Source: Pseudomonas sp. MAG733B (GTDB lineage Bacteria > Pseudomonadota > Gammaproteobacteria > Pseudomonadales > Pseudomonadaceae). From it: a stretch of DNA of 64,000 nt. Below the pieces are notes generated by a model that was given only the letters and a program-made list of their open reading frames with translations, did not search any database and was not told the DNA's origin. This document shows, in pieces, positions 38,457 through 45,121 of the stretch. The position numbers and the translations under genes were made by a program. The number at the start of each line of letters is the position of its first letter. Position 1 is the stretch's first letter. The DNA lies in NCBI RefSeq assembly GCF_036884845.1, contig NZ_CP145732.1:5146001-5210000 (forward strand), given 5' to 3'.

Positions 38457-38773
38457 TTTAACCGCGTGCATATCCATTGCTGCGGTTAAGGCCACTTATG
38501 GTTCCGCCCTTACGGCGGGTCACTTTGGAAAAGCCCCAAAGTAACCAAAGCGCTTTGCCCCTGACGTTCGGTGCCTCGCTGTGGCTCGGCATGCCCTCGC
38601 TCCGGTCCTGCTCCGTGGGCCCGCCGCCATCGGCCATCCATGGCCGGGGGCGGCTAACCCGGCATCCTTGCCGGGTTGCCCACTGCGCAGAACCTCCACT
38701 CGGCCTCTCGAGGGGGCGTACACCTCAAAAGCAAAAGCGAGGCGGCCTGATAGCCGACCTGACTATTGCTGAT
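38457..38773. repeat. Long intergenic Pseudomonas repeat element (about 0.3 kb)
   Basis: A non-coding block with internal palindromes (GTTCCGCCCTTACGGCGGG; CTTTGGAAAAGCCCCAAAG; CCATGGCCGGGGGCGG; CCCGGCATCCTTGCCGGG; GGCCTCTCGAGGGGGCG). I recognise the sequence as a repeat that recurs between genes in many Pseudomonas chromosomes. Short frames inside it have no ribosome-binding site and arise from its composition. No target-site duplication is obvious at its ends. Its origin and mobility mechanism are unknown. Confidence 0.7.
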
Positions 38774-41084: not shown

Positions 41085-41435
41085 TCAGCTGTCCTGAGGC
41101 TCCAGGCGCGCGCCTTTACGCGTTACTTGCTGGCCGGGTTCGAAGCGCGCGTTGGGCGAGCGCACGGTGCTGATTTCACCTTGGGTGTCTTTGACTTCGT
41201 AGGCGGTTTCGGTGAGGCCGGCCGCTTCCTGCACCGAACTTCCGGCAAAGAATCCGGCGCCAGCACCAACCAGCGCCCCGACCGGCCCGCCCACCGCGCC
41301 CACCATCAACCCGGTGAGTGCACCGAAGCCTTTGCCGGCGGTGGTGTCGGGAACCTCGCGGACCACTTGGTCGGCCATGCACAGGGAGGAAAGCAACAGG
41401 CAGAGGGTAAAGCTGAGGGGGATTGAACGGGGCAT
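41085..41435 (-). CDS. Glycine-zipper small exported protein
   Basis: A 116-residue protein with a signal peptide (about 1-21, ending CMA). A glycine-zipper segment (GKGFGALTGLMVGAVGGPVGALVGAGAGFFAGS, about 35-67) follows, with Gly at regular intervals that allow close helix packing in a membrane. The rest is polar. Similar proteins are outer-membrane or envelope stress components (SlyB or YcfJ-like). A Cys near the cleavage site lies before the mature end and does not form a clean lipobox. The start is ATG at 41435, with AGGAAAT upstream. Confidence 0.75.
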   Translation of the reverse strand: MPRSIPLSFTLCLLLSSLCMADQVVREVPDTTAGKGFGALTGLMVGAVGGPVGALVGAGAGFFAGSSVQEAAGLTETAYEVKDTQGEISTVRSPNARFEPGQQVTRKGARLEPQDS

Positions 41436-41746
41436 GGCGATTTCCTGCTTCGGTTACGATGTTTTGGATACATCACGAAGCGTGCCAACTAGTAAATCGT
41501 TTATTTTCAATATGTTGCGAAACATACAAGTCTTAAAGACAACTATTAAAAAGAGTCCTAATGACTCCAAAATAGTCAAATAGACTCTGCCGACCTATTG
41601 ATATCAAAATCAAAAATTGCAGCCTGCGGCGGCTCACTGGTAGCGCGTGCGATGCACATTCTTAGCTGTTCCTGGACATGAATGGGCTACCAACAGCTGC
41701 GATCTGTTCATAACACCCTGTAAAAAAATGACACAAACAGAAAAAG

Positions 41747-41820
41747 GAGACCGTCGTTTCGGAAACGTCTCACAGCCAGAATCTGAGCTTCTCGGTAGGG
41801 TCAATATCCCTCAGCGAGAC
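41747..41820 (+). promoter_or_regulatory. Structured leader upstream of the queC-like gene
   Basis: Two hairpins are predicted. GAGAC (41747-41751) pairs with GTCTC (41767-41771) around an inner GTT/AAC stem. TCTCG pairs with CGAGA around AGGG/CCCT (about 41790-41818). A short frame also starts ATG at 41728 and reads through the region in another phase ([12 protein letters not shown] start). It does not match the preQ1 riboswitch types I know. The 170 bases before it, AT-rich, hold no recognisable gene. Confidence 0.35.
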
Positions 41821-41845
41821 GCTGGGATTCCCAAGGAAGAAAAGC

Positions 41846-42541
41846 ATGACCAAAAAGGCAGTTATCGTTTTCAGTGGCGGGCAAGATTCAACAACTTGCT
41901 TAGTCCATGCGTTGCCGCTCTACGATGAAATTCACTGTATTACGTTCGACTATGGCCAACGCCATCGTGCGGAAATTGAAGTGGCGCAACAACTTTCAAA
42001 ACAGCTAGGCGTGAAAGTGCATAAAATTCTAGACACTTCCTTACTGAATGAGTTGGCTATCAGCAGCCTAACGCGCGATAACACTCCATCTCTAAACATA
42101 AACAGCTCCGGGAATAACCTACCAAACACTTTCGTACCTGGTAGAAATATTCTGTTTTTGACCCTGGCATCTATTTACGCATATCAAGTGCGTGCTGAGG
42201 CAATCATCACTGGCATTTGTGAAATAGAGTGTTCCGATTACCCTGACTGCCGCGATGAATTTGTAAAGCACCTGAATGACGCTATCGAATTTGGCATGGA
42301 TTACAAATTACATATTCAAACTCCGCTGATGCGGCTTAGCAAAGCGGAAACTTGGGCGCTTGCAGATCATCACCAACAGTTAAACTTGATTCGCCACGAG
42401 ACATTAACTTGCTATAACGGCATAAAAGGAAGTGGTTGCGGCAATTGCGATGCGTATAATCTTCGTGCAAATGGATTAAATGAATTCCTTGAAAATAGAA
42501 CGCAAATCATGAACAACCTAAAAACAAAACTTGATCTATAA
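41846..42541 (+). CDS. queC: QueC-like 7-cyano-7-deazaguanine synthase with an altered zinc site
   Basis: A 231-residue ATP-dependent enzyme of the PP-loop family (SGGQDSTTC, residues 10-18), closely like enterobacterial QueC along its whole length ([38 protein letters not shown]). QueC makes preQ0 from 7-carboxy-7-deazaguanine. The C-terminal zinc motif normally has four Cys; here Cys189, Cys198 and Cys201 are present but the fourth position is Tyr204 (TAT codon, one base from TGT). Activity is therefore uncertain. It starts ATG 41846 after AAGGAAG. Low G+C and enterobacterial likeness indicate horizontal gain. It converges with the transporter gene. Confidence 0.85.
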
Positions 42542-42556
42542 ATAACAGCCAATGGC

Positions 42557-42586
42557 AGGGGCATATGCGATTAACATCATGCCCCT
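42557..42586. terminator. Hairpin in the convergent queC-transporter gap
   Basis: AGGGGCAT (42557-42564) and ATGCCCCT (42579-42586) are perfectly complementary. No T run follows on either strand, so it is only a terminator-like structure serving either convergent gene. Confidence 0.4.
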
Positions 42587-42590
42587 AGCT

Positions 42591-43463
42591 TCATGCCGTT
42601 GATGCACCAGCAACATACCTTTTAAATAGTGACCTTGCTCCATATGCTGGAAAAACATTAAACACAGCAAAACACATTTTTATAGCTATCTGAGCGTAAA
42701 TCAAATTCAGTATATCAGCACTTTGCATAATTCCGTAAAACGCAATATAACAAAATAGAAAACTATCTATAATCACAGCAAAAAAAGTGCTAAAGAATAC
42801 ACGCAAAAACAGAAATTTCGAATTCGTAAGCTCTTTTATTTTGCACAACAAATAAGAATTTACAGTCTCAGAAAACACAAAAGAAACTGATGACGCCACT
42901 AAAACAGACGACACATGAGCGACAACTTCCGCATACGGAACATCTAATTTCCAACCAGGCAGTCCAGGGAGAAAATTAACCGCATTAAGCAACAGAACAA
43001 TTAGAGCATTACCGCCAAATGCAAATAACAAAGCTTTTTTGGCGAGTCTAAATCCGTAAGTTTCATTCAACAAGTCAACCACTAGAAATGTCAACGGATA
43101 TAGAAATACGGCGGGAGGGACAACAAGATCGAATAAATCCAAATGTACAAGCTTGGTAGCAGCGATATTTGTAAAAACAAAAAGCGCAAGCAAAATCAAA
43201 TTCAAAACAACATAAATCATCCACGACCGCTCATTACGATCGTAAATTTCGTAAGCTGTCACCGCAGCTCCACCAGAGTAGTACTTCCTGTAAATATCCT
43301 TAATTTCGGATTTACTTAAATCATCTATTATCTCGCTTTTCACCACTTCACTTATTTTTACCTTAATAATTTTCCCTGTAGAAATCACCATGACAACAAC
43401 AAGGCCTTTACTATTCTCGAACCCTAGAAGCTTGTACTTGCCATTTTCAGGTTCATTACCCAT
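42591..43463 (-). CDS. VUT-family transporter (queuosine-precursor type) with soluble N-terminal extension
   Basis: A 290-residue membrane protein. Residues 1-78 are hydrophilic and beta-rich (KYKLLGFENSKGLVVVMVI, KIIKVKISEVVKS), an extension absent from E. coli YhhQ. Residues about 80-285 form roughly six transmembrane helices with VUT/DUF165 traits: FVFTNIAATKL, YPLTFLVVDLLNETYGFRLAKK and SSVSFVFSETVNSY. VUT proteins import preQ0/preQ1 or related bases. The start overlaps the end of the upstream regulator gene by 8 bases, with GAGGAAAGG before it. One 60-base line (42661-42720) counts 19 G/C, far below the flanking genes. I do not recognise the N-terminal extension. Confidence 0.8.
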   Translation of the reverse strand: MGNEPENGKYKLLGFENSKGLVVVMVISTGKIIKVKISEVVKSEIIDDLSKSEIKDIYRKYYSGGAAVTAYEIYDRNERSWMIYVVLNLILLALFVFTNIAATKLVHLDLFDLVVPPAVFLYPLTFLVVDLLNETYGFRLAKKALLFAFGGNALIVLLLNAVNFLPGLPGWKLDVPYAEVVAHVSSVLVASSVSFVFSETVNSYLLCKIKELTNSKFLFLRVFFSTFFAVIIDSFLFCYIAFYGIMQSADILNLIYAQIAIKMCFAVFNVFPAYGARSLFKRYVAGASTA

Positions 43464-44052
43464 TAAACCTTTCCTCTATTATCTCCCCCACAACACGAAC
43501 AACTTCAGAATCATGGCAAGACGCATTAGTTATAAATAGCTTCCTCTCTATCCCGTCATACACCAATTTTTCTCTATCACTCCTCGTCACTCCTTTCCTT
43601 ATTATCAAAATGTCACCGGGCTCGTTCACACCACTAATGCCCTTCTCCAAGAGCACACCTATTAAGTTACATGCGGTGCCAAAATAATAAGTAAGCGGGT
43701 GAGTTGCCGCCAACTCACCGATCCTCTTGTCAAGATTCAGAAAAAGCAAACTCTCTTTAATTATAGGAACCGCCGCAGGATTCATATTACCCTCTAGAGA
43801 AATACTGCTCTCAATGATTTCTCTCTCTTCAAAATCAACAGTCTCTATTTCCCTATAGGACACACCAAAAAAATCAGAAATCTTACGAATCGTGGATTGC
43901 TGAACGTTGACGACTCTTCCTTCGAGAATGTTATATATCGTCGTCCTGGTCAAACCACTAGAGCTACACAACGACAACTGCGTCTCCCCTCGACTTTTTA
44001 TAAGATACTTTATGTTGCTCTTCAATCTTTCAGTTTTTTCTTTCTTATGCAT
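43456..44052 (-). CDS. XRE-family regulator with S24-like C-terminal domain
   Basis: A protein of about 198 residues. The N-terminal Cro/C1-type helix-turn-helix (about 12-65) is clear: LIKSRGETQLSLCSSSGLTRTTIYNIL. The C-terminal half (about 115-198, GDILIIRKG ... VYDGIERKLFITN ... VVRVVGEIIEERF) has the strand order of LexA/S24 proteins but lacks the usual G-x-S-M-x-P catalytic motif, so it may sense a ligand without self-cleavage. It overlaps the VUT gene by 8 bases, so the two are one unit, probably autoregulated. ATG-ATG at 44055/44052 gives two possible starts; no strong ribosome site. Confidence 0.8.
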   Translation of the reverse strand: MHKKEKTERLKSNIKYLIKSRGETQLSLCSSSGLTRTTIYNILEGRVVNVQQSTIRKISDFFGVSYREIETVDFEEREIIESSISLEGNMNPAAVPIIKESLLFLNLDKRIGELAATHPLTYYFGTACNLIGVLLEKGISGVNEPGDILIIRKGVTRSDREKLVYDGIERKLFITNASCHDSEVVRVVGEIIEERFNG

Positions 44053-44055
44053 CAT

Positions 44056-44470
44056 GCAATTACCAACTCATAGCTATTACAGAATATTTACATATATTTT
44101 TTGATGAACAAGCATCCGACACAACTGACCTCAGCTAAAAAAGTAATAATGCAACCAAGCCAAAAAATCGTCAAACAATGTTTCACATCACTATCCCTAC
44201 GTAAAGTCCTACAGGCACGCCCCACTTAATTTTAAGATGTTTCTTACAGCAAACAGTGTGTTATCCAGCGAAATAACCTACAGAACTATAGACGTGAAAA
44301 ACGATGCAATGAAACACGAATCATTTAATTACATAGATGTTCAATATTTTGATTAATTATTTTGAATTTTCTGGTAATAAACCTGGCAGCCCGTCAATTC
44401 ACGCACTGCCGCCAACAACTCTTCGACGGCATGGGACTGGCACTTCTTTTACTTTGAAAGGAAATCCGAA
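44056..44470. other. AT-rich intergenic stretch, no gene seen
   Basis: A 415-base gap between the XRE regulator and a DUF6124 gene. It has no credible reading frame. Near the regulator start two TTACA boxes lie 11 bases apart (44077-44081 and 44088-44092), one helical turn, which could be an autoregulatory site. The normal Pseudomonas composition returns at about 44380. Confidence 0.4.
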
Positions 44471-44827
44471 ATGAAAAGGACCACCCCAAAACCAGACGCA
44501 GAGACAATCGACTTCTCCAAGCTCTCAAACATCACTGAACCCCTCGTCAGTGCGCGCCTGCGTAATCCAAACCGCCCCGATCCCGTCAGCCATGTCTTCA
44601 CCATCATTCCGAACATCGATACGGAATCCTTGCTCTGTCACGCCTGCGAAACCCTTGCATCCCTGAATGTGATGGCTACTGATCTCGCGTGCGAAGTGGA
44701 AGGCTCGCGGCGAAACGTGATGTTGGCCATTCAGCAATTGGCCGTGCTGGGCGAATTGCTGGTCAATCGAGCGCTGGACAATCTCGACCCACCCGGTGGT
44801 TTGCCTGAGGCTGCGTCAAGTAGCTAA
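44471..44827 (+). CDS. DUF6124 (DUF3077-like) small Pseudomonas protein
   Basis: A 118-residue protein without signal peptide. A polar N-terminus (residues 1-45) leads into a helical region containing IPNIDTESLLCHACETLASLNVMATDLA and a second long helix VMLAIQQLAVLGELLVNRAL. This pattern marks a small family frequent in Pseudomonas, function unknown. GAAAGGAAATCCG precedes the ATG. It is 42 bases before a second, shorter protein of similar character. Confidence 0.75.
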   Translation: MKRTTPKPDAETIDFSKLSNITEPLVSARLRNPNRPDPVSHVFTIIPNIDTESLLCHACETLASLNVMATDLACEVEGSRRNVMLAIQQLAVLGELLVNRALDNLDPPGGLPEAASSS

Positions 44828-44869
44828 TGCAGAGGTGCCGGTTCTTTAACTTCAAGGAGGTATTTCGTC

Positions 44870-45121
44870 ATGGATAGATACATGCCCATCACCGGCATCG
44901 ACTGCACCATTGCATCGCTGGTAATCGACACCGAAGCACCATTGGATGTATTGCACGAAACCGCGGCCTACCGCATCCGCACCGCGACTCAACTGCTGGA
45001 AGCATTTGCCTTCAGCGAGAGTGTTCACAGCGAGTTGGCGCGGGTGCTGGTGACTTCACTGCGCGACGGCTGTGACTTGCTGGATGTCGTCGGACGACGA
45101 TTGCAGGCGCATCTTTCGTGA
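44870..45121 (+). CDS. Small Pseudomonas protein related to its upstream neighbour
   Basis: An 83-residue cytosolic protein, mostly helical. The segment LVIDTEAPLDVLHETAAYRIRTATQLLEAFA parallels the DTESLLCHACETLASLNVMATDLA region of the preceding gene, so both probably belong to one superfamily (DUF3077-like). AAGGAGGTAT gives a strong ribosome site. A hairpin with a short T run follows at 45140-45160. Function unknown. Confidence 0.7.
   Translation: MDRYMPITGIDCTIASLVIDTEAPLDVLHETAAYRIRTATQLLEAFAFSESVHSELARVLVTSLRDGCDLLDVVGRRLQAHLS

Follow-up and report, generated by a model that had tools for sequence, protein, structure and literature searches.

COG1738 transporters such as YhhQ of Escherichia coli have been described as preQ0 transporters, and the clustering of COG1738 genes with queuosine genes is a known theme (PMC5372724); the diversity of queuosine-precursor transporters is treated in PMC11130926. 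A motif set for canonical QueC, cluster 1 of PF06508, is available from PMC13329287, according to which QueC homologues elsewhere serve DNA modification and defence systems and CDG is used by Cap9 and QatC. Deazaguanylation by QatC and Cap9 is covered in PMC13279940 and PMC11996544, and queCDE are carried on symbiosis ICEs of Mesorhizobium (PMC8627217). The locus described here lies in a window of 64,000 nucleotides from Pseudomonas sp. MAG733B (NZ_CP145732.1, positions 5,146,001 to 5,210,000) and is probably one copy of a mobile, self-regulated cassette for the supply or salvage of queuosine precursors.

Within the cassette, queC on the forward strand converges on an overlapping xre-vut pair on the reverse strand. 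The following features were assigned:

41456..44460, no strand: AT-rich island with queC leader, three genes and xre leader; 39.9% G+C versus 61.3% outside
41846..42541, + strand: queC-II, 7-cyano-7-deazaguanine synthase of the PRK11106 type, 231 amino acids (PF06508, NF008317); arranged alike in 34 of 199 Pseudomonas genomes
42455..42457, + strand: Tyr204 codon replacing the fourth zinc-binding cysteine ([16 protein letters not shown]); cysteine in 119 of the 119 nearest clusters
42542..42590, no strand: 49-base convergent gap from queC to vut, compared over 38 loci
42591..43463, - strand: vut, COG1738/TIGR00697 queuosine-precursor-transporter family, 290 amino acids (PF02592, TIGR00697)
43236..43463, - strand: VUT extension at the N terminus (about residues 1-76) with the motif KYKLLGF...TG...E...K.Y; conserved in aligned copies, no Pfam match
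43456..44055, - strand: xre, regulator of 199 amino acids with an XRE helix-turn-helix (HTH) and a putative LexA/CI-like second domain in which no conserved catalytic serine was seen (HTH_3, predicted model)
43456..43463, - strand: 8-base coding overlap of xre and vut, from the reading frames
44056..44470, no strand: AT-rich leader between xre and a divergent DUF6124 gene; the operator search gave none

Same-sized stretches outside the island have a mean G+C content of 61.3% (s.d. 1.6, minimum 56.2%), and the stretch of 3005 bases with the lowest G+C in the window begins at 41487. The description of the locus in an earlier, sequence-only reading, namely an AT-rich island of three genes with VUT and its regulator overlapping by 8 bases on the strand opposite to queC, is thus borne out by composition and reading frames. 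Among the 38 loci compared, the stop-to-stop gap between queC and vut is 33-141 bases in 32, no convergent queC being measured in the remaining six, and the xre/vut overlap is estimated at 2-26 bases in 37, the remaining locus having a broken vut.

Several further elements were noted around the island. The DUF6124 gene and a gene of 83 amino acids adjoin xre at 44471-45121; in 18 of 50 loci, at several sites, DUF6124 neighbours the cassette, and it lies inside 31 of 80 named loci. A TwoAYGGAY RNA match at 38617-38681 (- strand), situated between a thiolase-like gene and a LysR gene, exceeds the Rfam gathering threshold with 50.2 bits (E 3.3e-05). The QueD placed near position 1760 by the sequence-only reading can be recognised as a QueD-type protein (PF01242, 127.7 bits) readable at about 1763-2113.

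The QueC protein of the window matches PF06508 with 248.8 bits and the enterobacterial-type equivalog NF008317/PRK11106 with 392 bits (cut-off 378), which agrees with its proposed likeness to enterobacterial QueC. The canonical motifs SGGxDS, YxQxHxxE, VPxRN and YPDC are present ([23 protein letters not shown]), and the substrate and ATP motifs are kept. The zinc motif C(x)8CxxCxxC is present in the cassette QueC family, but is incomplete in the window copy, where Tyr204 stands in place of the fourth cysteine. The loss is tolerable in this genome because QueC-I is present: a second, housekeeping QueC was found, as had been predicted from what is usual in pseudomonads. The cassette copy of the window, redundant there and short of one zinc cysteine, may be decaying; a sequencing error could likewise be the source of Tyr204. 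Yet another QueC type, 46-48% identical to that of the window, occurs in four Pseudomonas genomes (G100, G173, G060 and G181).

The VUT protein is matched by Vut_1 (PF02592) with 113 bits (cut-off 27.2) and by TIGR00697, 'queuosine precursor transporter', with 93.1 bits (cut-off 50.95). Its predicted model resembles ECF S-components. Foldseek alone found nothing in the PDB at E 0.001 or below, and a sequence search of the PDB returned nothing significant for VUT or the regulator. The membrane domain is preceded by the extension of about 76 residues, which matches no known domain and is conserved in the aligned copies from Serratia, Arsenophonus and Vibrio. The VUPS membrane sensor profile (PF20973) is approached by three relatives at 24.8-25.7 bits, below its cut-off of 27, and does not match the window protein. 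In a sample of 369 genomes drawn from the class, with few genomes per family, 63 matched the VUT profile; besides the genome of the window, none showed full coverage of the extension, and a few weak or broken matches start at residues 24-47. A shorter, distant VUT-family protein at G000:C1:1683197-1683373 (L004; 24.6 bits, below the Pfam cut-off) is perhaps the host's own precursor transporter.

The assignment of the regulator as XRE/S24-like holds for its XRE part, since the protein matches HTH_3; the S24-like half has no Pfam match and depends on the predicted model (pLDDT 75), in which the second domain resembles LexA and the lambda/186 repressors. The best-ranked structural matches of this domain, however, are to Rubisco accumulation factor 1 (C-terminal domain). 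An alignment of 15 regulators showed no conserved serine for self-cleavage in the stretch where one would be expected. The control regions were searched for operators by common k-mers, none of which is shared by the xre and queC leaders (37 and 44 leaders), and by palindromes, which revealed nothing common to 15 xre leaders. No Rfam match, and hence no riboswitch, was detected in 41400-44500 up to E=5.

Full-length VUT was found in 39 of 199 Pseudomonas genomes, and XRE adjoins VUT in all 39. QueC-II is present in 35 of these, in 34 on the same contig with the same layout and in one (G158) split over contig ends; the hypergeometric chance of this number is 7e-25 if relatedness is ignored. Four genomes have VUT-XRE without an intact QueC-II (G038, G061, G100 and G087, with truncated queC), and 11 of the 46 QueC-II genomes, among which G151 is included despite a stop in its frame, lack a full VUT. 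For G045 and G077 the XRE matches (E about 7e-4) were left out of the counts; the VUT fragments of G037, G046 and G176 and an XRE fragment in G046 were not taken as full length. The VUT genes of G168, G188 and G122 are flagged with one TGA, that of G168 (L095) being open to residue 287. In the 80 named genome loci, kept from 99 relatives, XRE is adjacent in 80 and QueC present in 70, one QueC being truncated; of the ten loci without QueC, two (L197, L201) lie at contig ends. The co-occurrence in other genomes on which the sequence-only reading had staked its proposal is therefore found. All three cassette genes are under purifying selection, with a median dN/dS of 0.073 for QueC, 0.054 for VUT and 0.128 for XRE (144, 41 and 44 non-independent pairs, dS 0.05-1).

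Among 50 fetched stretches, the cassette or its QueC occupies several unrelated chromosomal sites: beyond cyoABCDE, adjacent to genes that resemble fatty-acid synthases, next to an arfB-like gene, and at the site of the window, which G002 has as well (these gene names being read from the sequence, not from family searches). The G+C content of QueC-II ranges from 43 to 61% and is highest in several cyo-site copies, as expected if old copies adapt to the host. In a tree of 49 QueC proteins, the nine rows from plasmid records, including Salmonella and Shewanella housekeeping types, are separated from the Pseudomonas copies by one branch (86/94). The presence or absence of vut needs several changes on this tree, in which L118 is labelled as lacking VUT only because the G158 cassette is split over contigs. 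The left neighbour of the island (41085-41435) was sought in 57 relatives and revealed no clean empty site; apart from G000 and G002, the only close match is in G030 (77%), near a presumed transposase frame. Together, co-occurrence, several chromosomal sites and plasmid copies in other genera support the idea of an acquired module for 7-deazapurine bases and run against both conditions that the sequence-only reading had named for its rejection. A gene of the SHMT family (PF00464) that looks unlike ordinary GlyA is situated next to xre at two genomic sites (L117:4281-5690 and 13 other loci of L072-L121). It is held by 38 of the 80 named loci and may travel with the cassette.

QueC-II is the sole QueC match in nine of the 46 QueC-II genomes. 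These nine and G122 possess one full-strength PF06508 match each, besides weaker PF06508 proteins (135 bits in G122, 82 bits in G004) and fragments. When the region beside queE was inspected in these ten genomes, the housekeeping queC gave no match in eight and was reduced to a remnant in two (G186, G158), the contig of G040 ending about 400 bases further on; both controls, G000 and G108, keep it there. Genes queE and queF are present in all 12 genomes, the ten tested and the two controls. The acquired QueC-II thus appears to have displaced the native QueC in several Pseudomonas. Displacement beside intact queE and queF is most simply understood if QueC-II makes preQ0 for tRNA queuosine, the option now favoured among those the sequence-only reading had left side by side. 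That QueC-II appears able to act as the cell's QueC is a genomic argument drawn from relatives, not from the copy of the window.

Outside Pseudomonas, tblastn searches against PLSDB located XRE in 22 records, of which 12 are from Serratia, five from Vibrio, four from Arsenophonus and one from Cedecea; VUT was located in the same four genera and two weak others. Of the XRE-bearing records 19 were fetched (Serratia 12/12, Arsenophonus 3/4, Vibrio 3/5, Cedecea 1/1). The Serratia records contain queC in 11 cases and queF in one; in two of the 11 the queC is without annotation and its match is confined to residues 3-211. In nine of the 12, xre-vut-queC is positioned directly before traA, with traM annotated on the other side in seven; a small HTH gene on the opposite strand, located between traM and xre in these seven (L236, L239, L242, L243, L244, L247 and L248), is possibly a transfer regulator. 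In Serratia JSRIV006, xre is divergent from traY-traA, an arrangement recorded for xre-vut-queF in one Serratia record. The pair faces a VirB-like cluster (Pfam) in E36 and lies upstream of pil genes in S. symbiotica. All three fetched Arsenophonus records carry queF, with T4SS genes in the stretch and vut broken by transposase genes in two. In Vibrio ED002 the pair is found beside trb genes and no queuosine enzyme was seen; two large unannotated Vibrio replicons carry queF, in one as a shorter frame, and no T4SS gene was recognised among their listed frames. Cedecea has queC, vut in two frames and no annotated T4SS. The partner enzyme differs in orientation, QueC being convergent (Pseudomonas, Serratia, Cedecea) and QueF co-directional (Vibrio, Arsenophonus, one Serratia plasmid). 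To some degree T4SS neighbours are expected, since the search set consists of plasmids. The Serratia plasmids, moreover, are interrelated.

These neighbourhoods could mean that the xre-vut pair is a switch tying plasmid transfer to the queuosine-precursor state. VUT would bind precursor, and its cytoplasmic N-domain, or the precursor, would alter XRE binding at the control region that the pair has in common with the tra, trb or virB operon. The location before traA or divergent from traY-traA in Serratia, the neighbouring genes of VirB type in E36 and Arsenophonus, the trb genes beside the pair in Vibrio ED002 and the conserved soluble extension of VUT are consistent with this. However, chromosomal Pseudomonas, the two large Vibrio replicons and Cedecea carry the pair without T4SS genes among the frames seen, the operator searches were negative and the Serratia plasmids are interrelated, making such a switch unlikely. 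Slightly less likely again is its extended form, in which the switch couples conjugative transfer to the host's supply of tRNA queuosine, QueC or QueF sets that supply, and the chromosomal Pseudomonas copies are domesticated descendants that in places run host preQ0 synthesis. Carriage on conjugative plasmids would also suit counter-defence by substrate drain, QueC removing CDG and QueF removing preQ0 to blunt the recipient's deazaguanine-based defences. The Dpd system uses preQ0. Each alternative enzyme consumes an intermediate of such systems, as PMC13329287 indicates for CDG; yet the chromosomal copies are old and widespread and appear to have assumed normal QueC duty, and we regard a drain as distinctly improbable.

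The sequence-only reading had also considered DNA modification and phage conflict. QueC homologues do serve modification and defence elsewhere (PMC13329287), but the recurrent cassette layout has no DpdA, qatA, qatB, qatD or CD-NTase partner, the protein carries the canonical QueC motifs, not the QatC set, and PADLOC reported nothing beyond a general QueC profile and weak matches to HTH profiles. Neither DpdA nor Tgt is among the annotated genes of the fetched plasmid stretches. Transfer RNA queuosine is favoured over these roles because the genomes described above have lost the housekeeping queC or keep a remnant of it, so that their one QueC match of full strength is that of the cassette; supply of preQ0 for DNA modification, or a part in a defence system, is thus very improbable. 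Phage conflict was not upheld, and phage origin was rejected: the search of viral contigs yielded no confirmed relative of the regulator, and the phage records gave one weak VUT relative, from Streptococcus, and two queC pieces in unannotated Escherichia records. AT-rich DNA can be a patchwork and queC is on the other strand, as if three unrelated foreign genes had come together by chance, a scarcely credible origin that is contradicted by co-occurrence in 39/39 and 35/39 genomes, a layout kept at several sites and in several genera, and low dN/dS.

Returning to the queuosine-precursor cassette, the N-extended vut overlaps xre and is tightly linked to it, and the two travel together with an enzyme of the queuosine pathway. 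VUT, with a predicted fold like that of an ECF S-component, would take up a precursor base, either preQ0, preQ1 or an earlier one, and QueC or QueF would raise cellular preQ0/preQ1 for Tgt and tRNA queuosine, with the XRE protein presumably controlling the cassette according to precursor supply. Counting against this reading, most carriers keep their own QueC, which leaves the need for the cassette without explanation, the QueC of the window lacks a zinc ligand, the partners are found apart in some genomes (no full VUT in 11 of 46 with QueC-II, no intact QueC-II in 4 of 39 with VUT-XRE), and neither a shared operator nor a riboswitch was found in the leaders and the region searched. If correct, queuosine metabolism travels as a regulated cassette with a swappable enzyme and displaces a core metabolic gene of its host. 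Its location at the regulatory end of more than one type of conjugation operon raises the question of why plasmids would need host tRNA queuosine. The new family pair of N-extended VUT and XRE and the natural QueC replacements are suited to the study of preQ0 supply.

The cassette appears to be undescribed in the literature surveyed, as judged from titles, abstract starts and passages, with thin coverage of subscription papers and bioRxiv. It is best read as a variant of the known QueC/COG1738 clusters; three features go beyond the sequence-only reading, namely that QueF can stand in for QueC, that the cassette is placed at the head of conjugation operons and that a zinc cysteine has been lost. 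With YhhQ and the COG1738 preQ0 transporters (PMC5372724) it shares the PF02592/TIGR00697 membrane domain and the linkage to queuosine genes. It differs from those clusters in the N-terminal extension of about 76 residues, the dedicated overlapping XRE regulator, the convergent queC or co-directional queF, the carriage on conjugative plasmids and the lack of a preQ1 riboswitch match. Its QueC has the size, the SGGxDS/YxQxHxxE/VPxRN/YPDC motifs and the PRK11106 equivalog of canonical QueC (cluster 1 of PF06508; PMC13329287), but is a second, displaced copy beside a transporter and in the window has Tyr for the fourth zinc Cys. In the predicted model, the regulator appears to share an HTH and a LexA/CI-like second domain with LexA and the lambda/186 CI repressors, whereas it has no Pfam S24 match and no conserved serine in the aligned stretch and overlaps a membrane-protein gene. 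Finally, queuosine genes on conjugative elements are common to the cassette and the Mesorhizobium symbiosis ICEs; these carry the preQ0 synthesis genes queCDE (PMC8627217), whereas the cassette combines one enzyme, QueC or QueF, with a transporter and a regulator and lies partly within the transfer region.
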